Under the pieces are notes generated by a model, which did no database searches, had not been told where the DNA came from, and saw only the letters and a list, made by a program, of their open reading frames with translations. A stretch of DNA of 64,000 nt, taken from a virus. The position numbers and the translations under genes were made by a program. Positions 12,853 through 19,104 of the stretch are shown here, piece after piece (the first letter of the stretch is position 1; the number at the start of each line of letters is the position of its first letter). Where the stretch lies: positions 1 to 64,000 of IMG/VR virus record IMGVR_UViG_3300044911_000835; one strand, given 5' to 3'.

Positions 12853-12885
12853 AATTCGTTACTTAAGCCTAGTGCTTAAGTTGTA

Positions 12886-12982
12886 AGTCTAAATTGAAGA
12901 GGTTGAGACAGGGGTTCGATTCCCCTCACCTACAAAGACGATGTGGGTGTCTTGGGTTCGATCAGCGTTGGATATCTAGACT
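12886..12982 (+). ncRNA. Permuted tRNA-like RNA (Y-RNA-like)
   Basis: Basal stem AGTCTA/TAGACT. T-arm AGGGG TTCGATT CCCCT (12910-12926) runs directly into acceptor 3' strand CACCTAC (12927-12933), A, linker AAGACGAT, and acceptor 5' strand GTGGGTG (12943-12949); the two strands pair over 7 bp. The following D-arm region is not canonical. A hairpin ACTTAAGC/GCTTAAGT lies just upstream (about 12860-12880). Confidence 0.6.
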
Positions 12983-13159
12983 GAGAATCGGCAATGTAGA
13001 AGCCGTAATGTAAGTGCTCTGCAACAGCAGGTCAATTCCTTTGTTGTTAAAGCTTACGAAGAAACAAAGCATTTTAAATGCAAACGACGAAGTATACGCT
13101 ATCGCTGCCTAAGCTTTAGCTGAGGTTTTGAGACTGTTCCTTATTACCCAATACAGTCT
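12983..13159 (+). ncRNA. Non-coding structured linker
   Basis: No gene. Helices: GTAAG/CTTAC enclosing CAACA/TGTTG with an AGG TCAATT CCT T-arm-like tip (about 13010-13060), GCATTT/AAATGC near 13070, and GAGACTGT/ACAGTCTC (13130-13137/13153-13160). Confidence 0.4.
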
Positions 13160-13915: not shown

Positions 13916-13989
13916 GTCTCACTAGTGTAATGGAAGCACGGCGATCTCCAAAATCGCAAGCCGAGGGTCGGTACCTTGGTGGGATGCCA
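13916..13989 (+). tRNA. tRNA-Trp(CCA)
   Basis: Acceptor GTCTCAC/GTGGGAT, stem-loop GCGAT CTCCAAA ATCGC, discriminator G, encoded CCA. The T-loop GTCGGTA is atypical. Confidence 0.88.
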
Positions 13990-13997
13990 GTATTAAT

Positions 13998-14071
13998 AAG
14001 GTGAAAAGGGTAGCTCCCCTGATAGTGCTCAATCCACTATCTAGCCTAAGAGTTCGATTGAGGAATAAAAG
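13998..14071 (+). promoter_or_regulatory. Conserved HNH-leader RNA motif, copy 1
   Basis: AGGT (13999-14002)/GCCT (14044-14047) closes two hairpins: AGGG/CCCT and GATAGTG CTCAATC CACTATC (14021-14041). The second hairpin's loop CTCAATC is complementary to GATTGAG (14056-14062), which contains the HNH ribosome site GAGG. This pseudoknot would block translation. A copy with covarying stems is at 18338-18411. Confidence 0.6.
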
Positions 14072-14647
14072 GTGTATAGAGAAATAAAAGAAGAAGAATT
14101 GAAGTTAGATAAACAGAGAGGTTATTTATACTTCATTGATAAAGATCACCCTCTTAAAACTGGAAATGCCTCCTACGTTTTTCTACATAGGCACATGGCC
14201 TCTATAAAAGCAGGCTACTGGCTATCTAGTAAGGAGCATGTTCACCATATAGATGAGAATAAATTAAATAATTCTCCAGAAAATCTACACATATGTTCTG
14301 CTTCTGAACACGGTAAGTTACATAGTGCGCATTTATGTATAGAAAAACTCTGTAAACAGTGTGGAATACTTTTTAAGCAAAAAGAGTCTACACAACTATT
14401 TTGTTCTACTGAGTGTAGTAGCAAGTATAGAGTTTTACTAGATGGATTAACTAAGGAAGAATTAGAACACTTATTATGGACTACTAATTATTCTGAACTA
14501 GGAAAACAATTTAAATGTAGTGATAATGGTATAAGAAAGTGGGCGAAAAGACTTAAATGTACAGTACCTCCTGCATACTTCCATAGTAAGGGCTACTCTG
14601 TAGAAAAGAAATTATCAATGTATTTAGAAATTAAAGAAAAAGGATAA
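14072..14647 (+). CDS. HNH homing endonuclease
   Basis: 191 residues, GTG start. Residues ~54-78 hold the HNH_3-type core (EHVHHIDENKLNNSPENLHI); residues ~95-115 hold a four-Cys zinc site (CKQC ... CSTEC). The C-terminus carries a helix-turn-helix (YSELGKQFKCSDNGIRKWAK), as in free-standing phage homing endonucleases. Its translation is probably repressed by the upstream RNA motif. It sits next to tRNA-Trp, a usual kind of insertion neighbourhood. Confidence 0.85.
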   Translation: MYREIKEEELKLDKQRGYLYFIDKDHPLKTGNASYVFLHRHMASIKAGYWLSSKEHVHHIDENKLNNSPENLHICSASEHGKLHSAHLCIEKLCKQCGILFKQKESTQLFCSTECSSKYRVLLDGLTKEELEHLLWTTNYSELGKQFKCSDNGIRKWAKRLKCTVPPAYFHSKGYSVEKKLSMYLEIKEKG

Positions 14648-14651
14648 ACGA

Positions 14652-14918
14652 ATGACTAAAGCTGTATATTGTTCACAAATGGTAGATTATGAAGGTATTG
14701 TAGAGGAAGATATTGGCTTTTTTGTAGAGGGTAATCGTTTCGAGTTTAAAGTAGACGTATATGAAGATATGATTACTTTCCGAGACTGTTTAGGCCGTTT
14801 CGTACCAGTTGACATTACTCAAATTGATCAAGTTATTGATGCTTTAGTTACTGCTAGGTCTTTGATGCTAGTGCCTATGGCTCCAGATACTTATGTTGAA
14901 TCTGATTTGGGTTGCTGA
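14652..14918 (+). CDS. Hypothetical protein
   Basis: 88 residues, acidic, likely beta-rich. Not recognised. Starts 5 nt after the HNH stop. Confidence 0.55.
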   Translation: MTKAVYCSQMVDYEGIVEEDIGFFVEGNRFEFKVDVYEDMITFRDCLGRFVPVDITQIDQVIDALVTARSLMLVPMAPDTYVESDLGC

Positions 14919-15114
14919 ACAGTTAGAATCTGAACCACCCCAAATACTTGAAGAATTTCAAGGATTTGAGGTAATAGTAGAGCTTAATGACCCATCCCAG
15001 TATTTTTCTAAGTACCAAATTTGGGCAGAGATAGAAAAGCTGCTAAAGCAAGCCCCTATTAAAGATAGATTAAATACAGTAGAGTACGTGAAAAACAAGT
15101 TGAAGAATTTTTAA
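14893..15114 (+). CDS. Hypothetical protein
   Basis: 73 residues, acidic with a helical C-terminus. ATG 14893 overlaps the previous gene by 26 nt; no clear ribosome site, so a later start is possible. Not recognised. Confidence 0.5.
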   Translation: MLNLIWVAEQLESEPPQILEEFQGFEVIVELNDPSQYFSKYQIWAEIEKLLKQAPIKDRLNTVEYVKNKLKNF

Positions 15115-15115
15115 C

Positions 15116-15144
15116 TTGTTTTTTTAGTTTAAAGCCTCTATAAT
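15116..15144 (+). promoter_or_regulatory. Sigma70-type promoter
   Basis: TTGTTT (15116-15121), 17 bp, TATAAT (15139-15144). Confidence 0.8.
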
Positions 15145-15174
15145 ATTATTTCTGAGTTTGAAAAAGGATTTGAA

Positions 15175-15369
15175 ATGACTTTTTGGAAAGTTCCTGGTCA
15201 ACTATTAATTAATGTATTATGTGAGATAATTCAAGCAAAGTTACTAGGCTTTGAAAAGCTCGCAATTGAATTTAGGCCTGAATTAGAGAACCAGTTGTTT
15301 TCTAGGGGATTTAAAGTTTCTACTATTAAACTTCCTAATAATTATTACACTGTGGTGGATCTAAAATGA
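15175..15369 (+). CDS. Hypothetical protein
   Basis: 64 residues, not recognised. AAGGATTTGAA precedes the ATG; ATGA overlap with the next gene. Confidence 0.55.
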   Translation: MTFWKVPGQLLINVLCEIIQAKLLGFEKLAIEFRPELENQLFSRGFKVSTIKLPNNYYTVVDLK

Positions 15370-15575
15370 AAGTAGGTACTTGGGTTCAGTTTGAGAATGA
15401 AAATAAACCTATAGGTTATATCATTGGTAAAAAAGAGCATAAGTATCAGCTTAGACCAACATCTAAAGAATTGATTAGAACTAACCTACATGAACTAGAG
15501 TTTGATGTAGATGGTTATGCTACTGAGTATGAACGCAAGAATAAGATCAATCGTATCATAGAATTTCAAGCTTGA
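15366..15575 (+). CDS. Hypothetical protein
   Basis: 69 residues beginning MKVGTWVQFENENKPIGYII, resembling small SH3-like phage proteins. Function unknown. Confidence 0.55.
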   Translation: MKVGTWVQFENENKPIGYIIGKKEHKYQLRPTSKELIRTNLHELEFDVDGYATEYERKNKINRIIEFQA

Positions 15576-15600
15576 TACGCAGTTCAATATTCTGTATAAT
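15572..15600 (+). promoter_or_regulatory. Sigma70-type promoter driving non-coding RNA
   Basis: TTGATA (15572-15577), 17 bp, TATAAT (15595-15600). The next gene is 1 kb away; the transcript begins with the tRNA-like RNA at 15626. Confidence 0.8.
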
Positions 15601-15625
15601 ATTGTTTATGAAATCGAGAAAGGTT

Positions 15626-15781
15626 TCATAAAGCACACTAGAAGGGTACTTAACCTACTAATCGACGGATTAGTAGCCTATGTGAGAGAACCCTTTAATA
15701 GGGTTAGGGTCACTATCAAACCGGCCGGCATGATACAAATAGGTGGTTAAACAGGTTCGATTCCTGTAGTGTGCTTTATGA
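15626..15781 (+). ncRNA. tRNA-like RNA with 15-bp extended acceptor
   Basis: TCATAAAGCACACTA (15626-15640) pairs perfectly with 15767-15781. A canonical T-arm ACAGG TTCGATT CCTGT joins the 3' strand as in a tRNA (acceptor GCACACT/AGTGTGC). In place of D and anticodon arms are CTACTAATC/GATTAGTAG and AACCCT/AGGGTT hairpins; there is no anticodon-like loop and no CCA. It can also pair with the leader (TTTATGAAA/TTTCATAAA). Confidence 0.6.
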
Positions 15782-15835
15782 GACTTTTGCGTACTGCTCT
15801 ATGATGCGGAGTACCAGTTGTCACAATAGACCGGA

Positions 15836-15930
15836 GGTTTAGCGTGCTCAAGGTAATATCCCAACATACATTAGTATTACTAATGATTACGTGAAAGTTT
15901 TATATAACGTCCAGGCTAGGACGCTAAACC
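15836..15930 (+). ncRNA. Structured RNA with 10-bp terminal stem
   Basis: GGTTTAGCGT/ACGCTAAACC closes 95 nt containing CATTAGT/ACTAATG and GTCC/GGAC hairpins. Confidence 0.45.
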
Positions 15931-16432
15931 AAGCGGACTGTTTATAGAGGTCGTCCGTAAACTACTATACATCATTTTATCCTGATGTTAAACGGATAGG
16001 GTACATAGGCGTTGGAAGCGAAATGTACCTAATAAGGTAAGGAAAGTAAACGGAGGATGGGAGCTAGTGAAACGTACTGGAACCTTATAGCAGATACCCC
16101 ACCGGCCTTAGAAATTGATAGTGAACTTAAGATAGCTATCGCCCTTTGTCAGAGTAGGTTAAAAACTGAAATCTTACTTAAATGAGGGCCAGTAAGTGAT
16201 AGTTATTTTGCCCATAACTGGAACCTGGCTTAGGTAGAATGTCGCAAATTCTACACTGTAGGAAGTTCGTAATGAAAGTTGTTAGTACCAAGAACTATAA
16301 ATATCGTTGAACTATCAGTCTTATAGTACTAGTAGACTTAAAACAACTAGGAAATTGGCTTCCCGAGTATGATAGTAAACTGCTCCGACCTTACTAGAAG
16401 TCGTTAAACTAGTACCCAGTATTCTAGAGTGC

Positions 16433-16502
16433 TGTGGTTAGGGCAGTTAGGTAACTAACAGGTTAAGACTCCGGTGTGCCCGGACGAGCTGCTCTAACCA
16501 CA
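16433..16502 (+). ncRNA. Structured RNA with 14-bp terminal stem
   Basis: TGTGGTTAGGGCAG pairs with CTGCTCTAACCACA (one wobble). The head has two hairpins, GTTAG GTAA CTAAC and TCCGG TGTGC CCGGA. Confidence 0.5.
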
Positions 16503-16609
16503 ACGCTCCCGTATATCAATTGGTATTGATGCTTTCTGATTCCACTATATGGATAATGTCTTTGACAAGTTAGTATCAATTCCACAACATTCTAATAAAA
16601 GGATTTAAT

Positions 16610-16807
16610 ATGCGTAAAAAACTATTAAGGTCTTGTGGATGTAGAACTTGTATGCGGGGCAGGCGTACCGCATATGGCCATGTAAGGTTACATCAAGCGG
16701 AAAAGCAGCTAAGACAACAATCTAGAATTAATATTGATAAAGCTATAAAAGGTAATGACCTAGATTTAATTGACATTATCGAAGTTTCTACGGATTACAC
16801 AGACTAA
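16610..16807 (+). CDS. Small basic Cys-containing protein
   Basis: 65 residues. Its N-terminus is basic with three Cys (SCGCRTCMRGRR), possibly nucleic-acid binding; the C-terminus is acidic. AAGGATTTA precedes ATG. Its stop overlaps the next ATG (TAATG). Not recognised. Confidence 0.55.
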   Translation: MRKKLLRSCGCRTCMRGRRTAYGHVRLHQAEKQLRQQSRINIDKAIKGNDLDLIDIIEVSTDYTD

Positions 16808-17415
16808 TGCAAATTATTTCACCTTTTAAAGATTACTATGATGTAGGTATGCAATATGGTTTCGACCCCAAATTGCAATGGATTAGGCGTACTTCTGACA
16901 TTGAGGAGTCTAGTCGCTGGCATCATTCTGAATCAATTATTCTACATTTTTGTGGTAAGACTTATAGAGGTATAGTTGTAAAGTCCGCTTCCTACTACAT
17001 TAATAGTATGGAAGTAATTTGGGATAATGAACACTACGATAAATATTGTACAGAAAATAAGGTAAAACCCTTAGAGATTAGTTGGCTAGATAAGTTTTGG
17101 ATAACTACTAAAGTTAGACCTAAATCCAAGATCATACAGTTAGGACTAATTGGTGAGTCTGACATTTTAAATGATAAATATAGTTCTCCGGTAATTTTAC
17201 AAACTAATAAAGGACTAGAGATTAATCCTTCCTTGAAGTTTATTCAGTTTTATAAAGTCTATGACCCAGTAACTACATATCAAAAAATTAGTGAATACTT
17301 TGGTAACAAGTTTTTTAATGAACCTAAAATGGTTCCAATTTCAGATAAAGATAGGATTAAACAACATGGATTTACTAAAGAAAGTTTCCGTATGGCTAAG
17401 TCCAGCAATAAATAG
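16807..17415 (+). CDS. Hypothetical protein
   Basis: 202 residues, not recognised. No obvious signal or membrane segment; aromatic-rich, probably a soluble alpha/beta protein. Confidence 0.6.
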   Translation: MQIISPFKDYYDVGMQYGFDPKLQWIRRTSDIEESSRWHHSESIILHFCGKTYRGIVVKSASYYINSMEVIWDNEHYDKYCTENKVKPLEISWLDKFWITTKVRPKSKIIQLGLIGESDILNDKYSSPVILQTNKGLEINPSLKFIQFYKVYDPVTTYQKISEYFGNKFFNEPKMVPISDKDRIKQHGFTKESFRMAKSSNK

Positions 17416-17464
17416 CTTTCTAATTATGTACTGGTTTAGCCTAGAGTGGCTTAAAGATAAATTT

Positions 17465-17539
17465 GCTTCGTTAACTCAGCGGTAGAGTAACTCCTTTACA
17501 CGGAGAAGGTCGGCGGTTCAATCCCGTCACGAAGTACCA
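17465..17539 (+). tRNA. tRNA-Val(TAC)
   Basis: Acceptor GCTTCGT/ACGAAGT, loop TTTACAC, encoded CCA. Confidence 0.93.
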
Positions 17540-17556
17540 ACTAATTAAGGATTTGA

Positions 17557-17808
17557 ATGGAATTTGATATTGAGATTAAGAAAACTACCTATGATAGGGT
17601 TCGCTTAAATGACGAAGATATTAAGAAGGTAGTTTTACACTATATTAGTCGTAAGTATAATATCCGTAAAGATGATTGGGTTGCAGAAGGTGACCTTACA
17701 CGTGAGGTTGAATACCATGGATCTCACAGTTGGTTTGAGCAAGAAGTTATTAGAAAAGTAACTGATTTCGATGTTGCATTACTAACACTTCTTAGAGAAT
17801 TAAAATAA
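17557..17808 (+). CDS. Hypothetical protein
   Basis: 83 residues (EIKKTTYDRVRLNDEDIKKV...), mixed charge. Not recognised; between tRNA-Val and tRNA-Asp. Confidence 0.55.
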   Translation: MEFDIEIKKTTYDRVRLNDEDIKKVVLHYISRKYNIRKDDWVAEGDLTREVEYHGSHSWFEQEVIRKVTDFDVALLTLLRELK

Positions 17809-17812
17809 TATT

Positions 17813-17886
17813 GGCTCTATCGTATATAGGTATTACCTCGGATTGTCTATCCGAAGAACACAGTTCGAATCTGTGTAGAGTCGCCA
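17813..17886 (+). tRNA. tRNA-Asp(GTC)
   Basis: Acceptor GGCTCTA/TAGAGTC, loop TTGTCTA, discriminator G, encoded CCA. Confidence 0.93.
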
Positions 17887-17894
17887 GGTTAAAT

Positions 17895-17970
17895 AGTAAC
17901 GAATGCAATTAGGTGAGCAGCTTGATTCATAATCAAGTGCTATTCGGTTCGAGGCCGAGCGTTACTACCA
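17895..17970 (+). tRNA. tRNA-Met(CAT), probably elongator
   Basis: Acceptor AGTAACG/CGTTACT, stem-loop CTTGA TTCATAA TCAAG, encoded CCA. Lacks the initiator GGG/CCC run. Confidence 0.88.
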
Positions 17971-17973
17971 AAT

Positions 17974-18035
17974 TAACTACTAGAGTTAAGCGCGTTAACT
18001 TAATAAGCAGCGGTCGGTAAGCTTTCTAGTAGTTA
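17974..18035 (+). ncRNA. Structured RNA with 11-bp terminal stem
   Basis: TAACTACTAGA/TCTAGTAGTTA closes 62 nt with an inner GTTAA GCGCG TTAAC hairpin. Starts 3 nt after tRNA-Met and abuts the next element without a gap. Confidence 0.55.
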
Positions 18036-18128
18036 CCACAAGTAGGCTTCACTTCCTTATCTGCTTCCAGCTGATTAGCTCGTACCTGGAAGTACGGGCG
18101 GGATAAGAGTAAGGAAGCCTACTTGTGG
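18036..18128 (+). ncRNA. Structured RNA with 15-bp terminal stem overlapping tRNA-His
   Basis: CCACAAGTAGGCTTC (18036-18050) pairs perfectly with 18114-18128. The helix continues imperfectly (CTTATC/GATAAG) to an apical CTTCCAG/CTGGAAG hairpin. Its last four bases, GTGG, are the first four of tRNA-His. Confidence 0.6.
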
Positions 18129-18200
18129 TCGTAACTTAACAGGCAAAGGCTCTGGCTGTGAACTAGAGAGATGCGGATTCGACTTCCGTCGATCACCCCA
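18125..18200 (+). tRNA. tRNA-His(GTG)
   Basis: Acceptor GTGGTCG/CGATCAC, stem-loop TCTGG CTGTGAA CTAGA, discriminator C, encoded CCA. The -1 position is T, whereas bacterial tRNA-His normally encodes G-1. Confidence 0.9.
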
Positions 18201-18257
18201 ATAATTTTCGGTCAGCGCCGAACCAACCAAACTGTCAAGATTAAATAAAGTCACGCA

Positions 18258-18334
18258 CGGCCGTTAGTTTAACTGGAAAGAACCTATGCATACGAAGCAT
18301 AGAAATGTACGTTCGAATCGTACACGGTCGGCCA
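18258..18334 (+). tRNA. tRNA-Arg(ACG)
   Basis: Acceptor CGGCCGT/ACGGTCG, stem-loop TATGC ATACGAA GCATA, discriminator G, encoded CCA. A34 would need deamination to inosine. Confidence 0.92.
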
Positions 18335-18337
18335 ATT

Positions 18338-18411
18338 AAGGCGAAAAGAGTCATTCTCCTGTTCCTTCCTCGGAACTAGCCTAAGTTTTAGCCCTTGAGG
18401 AGGGGTGTATT
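18338..18411 (+). promoter_or_regulatory. Conserved HNH-leader RNA motif, copy 2
   Basis: AGGC (18339-18342)/GCCT (18379-18382) closes GAG/CTC and GTTCC TTCCTC GGAAC hairpins. The loop TCCTC pairs with GAGGA of the HNH ribosome site at 18397-18401. It shares TAAGG-GAAAAG and TAGCCTAAG with copy 1, while the helices differ in sequence but keep pairing. Confidence 0.6.
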
Positions 18412-19095
18412 ATGAATGAAGAAATAATAGAAGAAATATATAATAAATTAGTTGAACGATTTGGTATTGGTGACGTGTTTTTACCTAAGTATGGAAAAAG
18501 AAAATCAGACTTAACCTGGAAACAGTTCATTAAAGCTGCTTTAGAACTAAAGTTAGAGGAACTCACTATTTATTGTGGATTTACGTTTAGTAAAGGCCTA
18601 AGTAGAGCTTTAAAAGAAAAATATCCTGGTATTATACAAGATAAAAATGGAGAATACTGGTTTCTATACCTATCTAAGTTTCTTAGTAAGAAAAGATGCT
18701 CACAATGTCTAGAAGTATTAGAATATAAAGAATTTAACTATAATTCATCAACAAAAGATGGATTTAGTTCTACTTGTAGACATTGCGACAAAGAATACAG
18801 AGACCTAAATAAAGAGCATATATTAGCACATAGTAAACAATATTACAGTAAGCATAAAAAAGAAATTAGTGCTAATAAAGCTAAACGTAGGGCTACAAAA
18901 CTACAAGCAACCCCAAATTGGGCAAACCTGATAGCCATAAAAGAAATTTATCGAACTTGCCCTGAAGGTTATCATGTAGATCACATAGTTCCCTTACAAA
19001 ACGACTTAGTATGTGGGCTTCATTGTGAATTTAATCTTCAACATCTATCTGCTAGCGAAAATTTAAGTAAAGGAAATAGATTTGAAGTAGATTAA
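18412..19095 (+). CDS. HNH endonuclease
   Basis: 227 residues. A central four-Cys zinc site (CSQCLEVL ... CRHC, ~98-125) is followed near 187-222 by an HNH core (HVDHIVPLQND ... NLQHLSASENLSKGNRF). The N-terminal ~90 residues are helical and may recognise DNA. It inserts beside tRNA-Arg and ends at a terminator, like a mobile gene. Probably a homing endonuclease; unrelated in sequence to the one at 14072 outside the core. Confidence 0.85.
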   Translation: MNEEIIEEIYNKLVERFGIGDVFLPKYGKRKSDLTWKQFIKAALELKLEELTIYCGFTFSKGLSRALKEKYPGIIQDKNGEYWFLYLSKFLSKKRCSQCLEVLEYKEFNYNSSTKDGFSSTCRHCDKEYRDLNKEHILAHSKQYYSKHKKEISANKAKRRATKLQATPNWANLIAIKEIYRTCPEGYHVDHIVPLQNDLVCGLHCEFNLQHLSASENLSKGNRFEVD

Positions 19096-19104
19096 GACCA
19101 AATT

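Follow-up and report, generated by a model that had tools for sequence, protein, structure and literature searches.

A three-way-junction RNA with a predicted pseudoknot across the Shine-Dalgarno region of phage homing endonuclease genes

Two leaders before HNH genes

The DNA considered here (the window), 64 kb from the start of the virus record IMGVR_UViG_3300044911_000835 (77,048 bases), carries two HNH nuclease genes, each preceded by a leader of about 75 nucleotides (nt). By sequence comparison, the leader RNA is a three-way junction with a pseudoknot that spans the Shine-Dalgarno (SD) sequence. Copy 1 occupies positions 13999-14062 with an HNH_3 gene downstream; copy 2 occupies 18339-18401 and an endonuclease VII-like HNH gene follows it. 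A sequence-only reading of this DNA had proposed a motif before both HNH genes, and both copies are located where it placed them. The covariance model matches the window at 13999-14047 (5.8e-20) and 18339-18382 (4.4e-10), and its search of the whole 64 kb found no third copy.

The elements, all on the plus strand, follow in the order P1 (4 base pairs, bp)-GAAAA-P2-CU-P3-UA-P1′, then a spacer, the pseudoknot strand across the SD and the start codon. In copy 1 the 5′ strand of P1 (AGGT, 13999-14002) pairs with GCCT at 14044-14047, and all four pairs covary across copies; this 3′ strand and hairpin P2 (GGG TAGCT CCC, 14008-14018) are assigned by covariation analysis of the alignment. The junction strand J12 (GAAAA, 14003-14007) is conserved and covaries with J23 (CT, 14019-14020), GAAAA/CT alternating with GAACA/TT. 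Hairpin P3 (GATAGTG/CACTATC, 14021-14041), in which seven of seven pairs covary, exposes the loop CTCAATC (14028-14034) and is followed by J31 (TA, 14042-14043). The loop forms 7 bp with GATTGAG at 14056-14062, which overlaps the SD GAGGA (14060-14064). The gene behind it (14072-14647, GTG start) encodes an HNH_3 nuclease of 191 residues (PF13392, 4.1e-11).

In copy 2 the strands of P1, AGGC (18339-18342) and GCCT (18379-18382), come from the covariance model match, and P2 (GAG TCATT CTC, 18348-18358) is compensatory relative to copy 1. Read from the sequence are J12 (GAAAA, 18343-18347), J23 (CT, 18359-18360), J31 (TA, 18377-18378) and P3 (GTTCC/GGAAC, 18361-18376) with its loop TTCCTC (18366-18371). 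TCCTC of this loop (18367-18371) pairs with GAGGA (18397-18401) inside the SD GAGGAGGGG. The HNH/endonuclease VII-like gene downstream (18412-19095) encodes 227 residues and matches phrog_1035 at 18685-19098 (4.4e-22). The sequence-only reading had described two hairpins whose helices differ and yet remain paired, the second loop being complementary to the SD; both hairpins, the compensatory P2 and both complementarities (CTCAATC/GATTGAG and TCCTC/GAGGA) are present. Its two-hairpin architecture, however, is incomplete, as the flanks TAAGG...TAGCCTAAG add P1 (AGGT/GCCT, AGGC/GCCT) as a third helix.

Comparison across copies

Pattern scans of IMG/VR yield more than 100 distinct further copies, and nearly all known copies are in this database. 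Further covarying examples, whose absence would have spoken against the sequence-only reading, thus exist, and they strongly support a covarying RNA with a pseudoknot across the ribosome-binding site, recurrent before phage nuclease genes. Escherichia phage EP_H11 provides one more copy, the sole true one from direct BLAST of the window leader, and two lie in metagenome-assembled contigs of GTDB, one of them ahead of a LAGLIDADG gene. The RNA is nearly invisible among isolates, with the consensus query matching 1 of 50,697 isolate phage records; this query had no match in plasmids and E. coli genomes, nor did the covariance model across 433 kb of other phage DNA. A record may hold more than one copy: a 114-kb record has six and a 99-kb record four. 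Pattern matches in Campylobacter-like phage DNA (L002, L004) lie inside a coding gene and were set aside as chance. The same applies to many matches of a loose 14-base pattern, and an exact 19-mer was used for the unbiased test.

This test comprises 93 unique testable copies chosen by the 19-mer GAAAAGGGTAGCTCCCCTG alone, which covers part of the RNA and carries nothing on P1, P3, J31, the pseudoknot or the gene. At least three of the four P1 pairs form in 91 of the 93, J31 is TA in 90, a pseudoknot of at least 5 bp is present in 87, and the start codon lies 4-11 nt 3′ of the pseudoknot in 89. The loop/SD pairing score is 5.88 for a copy's own downstream DNA versus 3.58 ± 0.10 for that of other copies, a preference that holds although every copy has an SD; over the 54 unique loops the values are 6.04 and 3.55 ± 0.10.

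Helix cells are paired to 98.9% in alignment A3, with double changes at 13 of 14 pairs. None of 500 shuffles is equally high and slid registers come nowhere near, but the rows of A3 were partly chosen by structure, and the 93-copy test is the main evidence. Single-sequence folding energy is ordinary in the window copies (z about -0.5 and -0.3), therefore the proof of structure rests on comparison and not on stability. On this comparative footing the motif is not chance, and the secondary structure, the pseudoknot, the covariation of the junction and the association with nuclease genes are established.

The junction consists of the strands GAAAA, CU and UA. Variants found by the model gave the hint that GAACA goes with UU; two dedicated scans were then made and structurally intact copies were counted. 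Among 106 copies, J12/J23 is GAAAA/CT in 93, GAACA/TT in 11 and mixed in two (GAACA/CT and GAAAA/TT, once each), i.e. matched in 104 (Fisher p 5e-13, uncorrected for shared descent). The GAACA/TT copies carry several different P1 helices and nucleases. Covariation of the junction bases points to a specific, defined tertiary core.

Nuclease genes and their setting

The 99 downstream open reading frames (ORFs) fall into 22 unrelated sequence clusters, nearly all of them nuclease families. They match HNH_3, HNH, Endonuclease VII, GIY-YIG, LEM-3 GIY-YIG and T5orf172/MUG113, as well as LAGLIDADG_1, LAGLIDADG_3, PDDEXK_5, DUF559, NUMOD3 and homing-endonuclease repeats. At least four unrelated homing nuclease folds, HNH/EndoVII, GIY-YIG, LAGLIDADG and PD-(D/E)XK/DUF559, are found behind the RNA. 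The link to HNH genes drawn earlier is correct but too narrow, since the other three classes are preceded by the same leader. Two ORFs are less clear: that of L176 (52 residues) has no match and that of L191 has a weak HNH-family match only. Near-identical leaders stand ahead of HNH_3, EndoVII and LEM-3 GIY-YIG genes (L129, L137, L139, L144, L173, L186), and the leader is therefore exchanged between nucleases. The nucleases of L083, L127, L135, L136, L167 and L171 have a common N-terminus, MKR(L/I)NP.TG.PFK, and different bodies, which suggests domain shuffling just 3′ of the leader.

In the same records, the covariance model gives no match at several homing-type genes. By eye, two such nuclease genes without the leader (L279, L290) show what looks like a hairpin masking the SD, and a TATAATATA-like promoter lies within or close to it, in likeness to the T4 design. 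Upstream of its ATG, L294 has, again by eye, a possible reduced leader (P1 GAGG/CCTC, hairpin GGG-CCTCAC-CCC, loop matching GTGAGG at the SD). L281, likewise upstream of the ATG and by eye, has what looks like a diverged one (P1 GGAGG/CCTCC, a GACAC junction, TT, loop TTCCTA matching TAGGAG at the SD).

EP_H11 and IME392 are 92.7% identical over their common parts, and IME392 is without both the leader and the nuclease of EP_H11. Identity stops 7 nt before P1 and resumes within the next gene, which places the leader within an inserted segment in this one case with a relative, as judged by alignment. For the window copies, no empty site was found among relatives of the neighbouring window genes, and the EP_H11/IME392 pair was used instead. 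The case for a promoter across the insertion point in EP_H11 is not convincing.

Near-consensus TTGACA/TATAAC promoters lie upstream in 34 of 106 copies, all 34 from related phages, with the end of the -10 element 6-8 nt (once 10) before P1; at the same threshold, 1 of 106 shuffles has one. A tRNA 3′ end lies 2-9 nt before P1 in at least eight copies. In the window, tRNA-Trp (13916-13989) ends 9 nt ahead of copy 1 and tRNA-Arg (18258-18334) 4 nt ahead of copy 2, both on the plus strand. The promoters and tRNA ends beside P1, which are sequence matches only, suggest that the mRNA begins at or close to P1 in both settings.

A proposed translational gate and its alternatives

We suggest, with a probability of about 0.85, that the RNA is a portable cis-acting translational gate that moves together with homing endonuclease genes. 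At its 5′ end, the mRNA would fold into the three-way junction and present the P3 loop, which would pair with the SD region, and ribosome loading would be blocked while the fold is closed. The 3′ end of the pseudoknot is usually 8 nt before the start codon, and in 98 of 99 copies at least 2 nt of the pseudoknot strand are also part of the SD:anti-SD duplex; hence the fold would compete with ribosome loading. Mean duplex energies are -5.6 kcal/mol for the pseudoknot and -7.1 kcal/mol for the SD, so that with a pseudoknot similar to or weaker than SD:anti-SD pairing the gate would be poised and not locked. The balance between open and closed would depend on the junction core, or on a factor bound there. 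As part of the mobile cassette, the leader would be common to or swapped among unrelated homing endonucleases and would keep the dose low or timed, whichever nuclease follows. Repression of translation and the role in timing are what we infer from this arrangement. The low level may be a property of the fold alone; otherwise the junction would be the site of action of a small molecule or host protein.

Several points weigh against the gate. The copies share descent and their counts are not independent. The main search patterns required GAAAA and CT, so that their conservation is partly selected, and some junction drift is seen in model-found variants. Copy 2 adopts another fold in pseudoknot-blind prediction, and one copy (L128) has no long ORF. 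One intact-looking leader alone, on the minus strand (L126:5729), precedes a non-nuclease gene (DUF7302-like, weak). A few copies (L006, L161, L169) have neither a clear pseudoknot nor a nuclease start, which would fit joint decay of the two.

Hairpins that mask ribosome sites are known for the homing endonucleases I-TevI, I-TevII, I-TevIII, segB and mobE of T4/Aeh1, and in the T4 type part of the hairpin is missing from the late transcript (PMC2988022); the sequence-only reading had pointed to the T4 case. The leaders described here resemble them in sequestering the SD of phage homing endonuclease genes, and probably, by analogy, in their purpose of limiting or timing the nuclease. The RNA is different: instead of a hairpin there is a three-way junction with a pseudoknot and covarying junction bases, serving unrelated nucleases.

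The gate may need no ligand. A constitutive compact mask over the SD would keep the nuclease low, the junction providing folding geometry, and we give this close to an even chance. Homing nucleases are commonly kept low, as T4 does with hairpins (PMC2988022), and other SD-masking leaders are seen by eye on nucleases of the same phages (L279, L290, L294). A simple hairpin would suffice for this, however, and the retention of the junction with compensating changes suggests more.

The junction may instead bind a metabolite, an ion or a host protein, so that the pseudoknot is stabilised or opened and nuclease expression follows the condition of the infected cell; we hold this tentatively, at somewhat under even odds. 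The covarying unpaired bases speak for a specific tertiary core, the same core is retained before unrelated nucleases while the helices vary freely, and the pseudoknot energy is marginal. A conserved, covarying structured 5′ leader adjoining an expression platform, as looked for in a riboswitch, is what is found. On the other side, the three-way junction could merely orient P3 for the pseudoknot, and it drifts among variants. The fuller version of this proposal, a new riboswitch class or host-factor sensor for homing endonucleases, portable among unrelated folds and releasing the nuclease under a set condition, is a shade more tentative still; its at least two junction subtypes, GAAAA/CU and GAACA/UU, may differ in what is sensed. 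The translational riboswitches preQ1-I and SAM-II also mask the SD via a pseudoknot in a compact 5′ aptamer, to which this fold is alike. They differ in architecture and in controlling metabolism, whereas mobile nucleases are controlled here, and no Rfam match links them.

Control by transcript origin, with structure in the read-through mRNA and none in the mRNA of a late internal promoter, is unlikely. It is known for I-TevI, mobE and segB (PMC2988022), and L279 in the same genome looks similar by eye, but in the 34 promoter-bearing copies the promoter lies upstream of P1 and the predicted transcript keeps the whole leader. Binding of the nuclease to its own leader is very improbable: I-TevI does autoregulate, though at the DNA level (PMC2988022), but one leader is common to HNH, GIY-YIG, LAGLIDADG and PD-(D/E)XK/DUF559 nucleases, and autogenous control was therefore rejected. 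An element of the DNA itself (a homing target, a recombination end or an inverted-repeat operator), to which the position at the edge of an inserted segment would be suited, is hardly credible and was rejected, since neither the compensatory changes nor loop/SD pairing at a constant spacing from the start codon has a rationale in DNA.

RNA control of homing endonuclease translation is thus already known, and as far as could be checked the structured RNA family is new. No Rfam 15 family matches the motif, either at the gathering threshold or when thresholds are relaxed, and these scans also gave no match to the HEARO model and no group I intron core at the motif, which sits between genes as a leader. 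HEARO and OMEGA RNAs of IscB are likewise structured RNAs beside an HNH nuclease gene; unlike those guide RNAs, ours is a short leader and its nucleases are of unrelated folds. No description was found in the open-access literature, and an earlier report elsewhere is possible. If the RNA is a portable gate, mobile nucleases carry regulatory RNA as a module, much like their DNA-binding modules, and one RNA is the point of convergence for nuclease families unrelated in fold. Such a gate for homing nucleases would be compact and testable; the new RNA family could be probed for a ligand, and its sequence could serve to find homing cassettes in viral metagenomes.

Other features of the window were noted. 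The phage contig has 23 tRNA genes and a permuted tmRNA (RF04321, 78 bits) at 12880-13112. A Ro60-like protein at 5547-7067 (TROVE 1.4e-29 plus a Ro60 vWA domain) adjoins the tRNA cluster. About 950 nt at approximately 15620-16600 are without an ORF of 60 residues and have no Rfam match; with inverted repeats and a tRNA-like 3′ end near 15770, this region is possibly a non-coding RNA and a partner of the Ro60-like protein.

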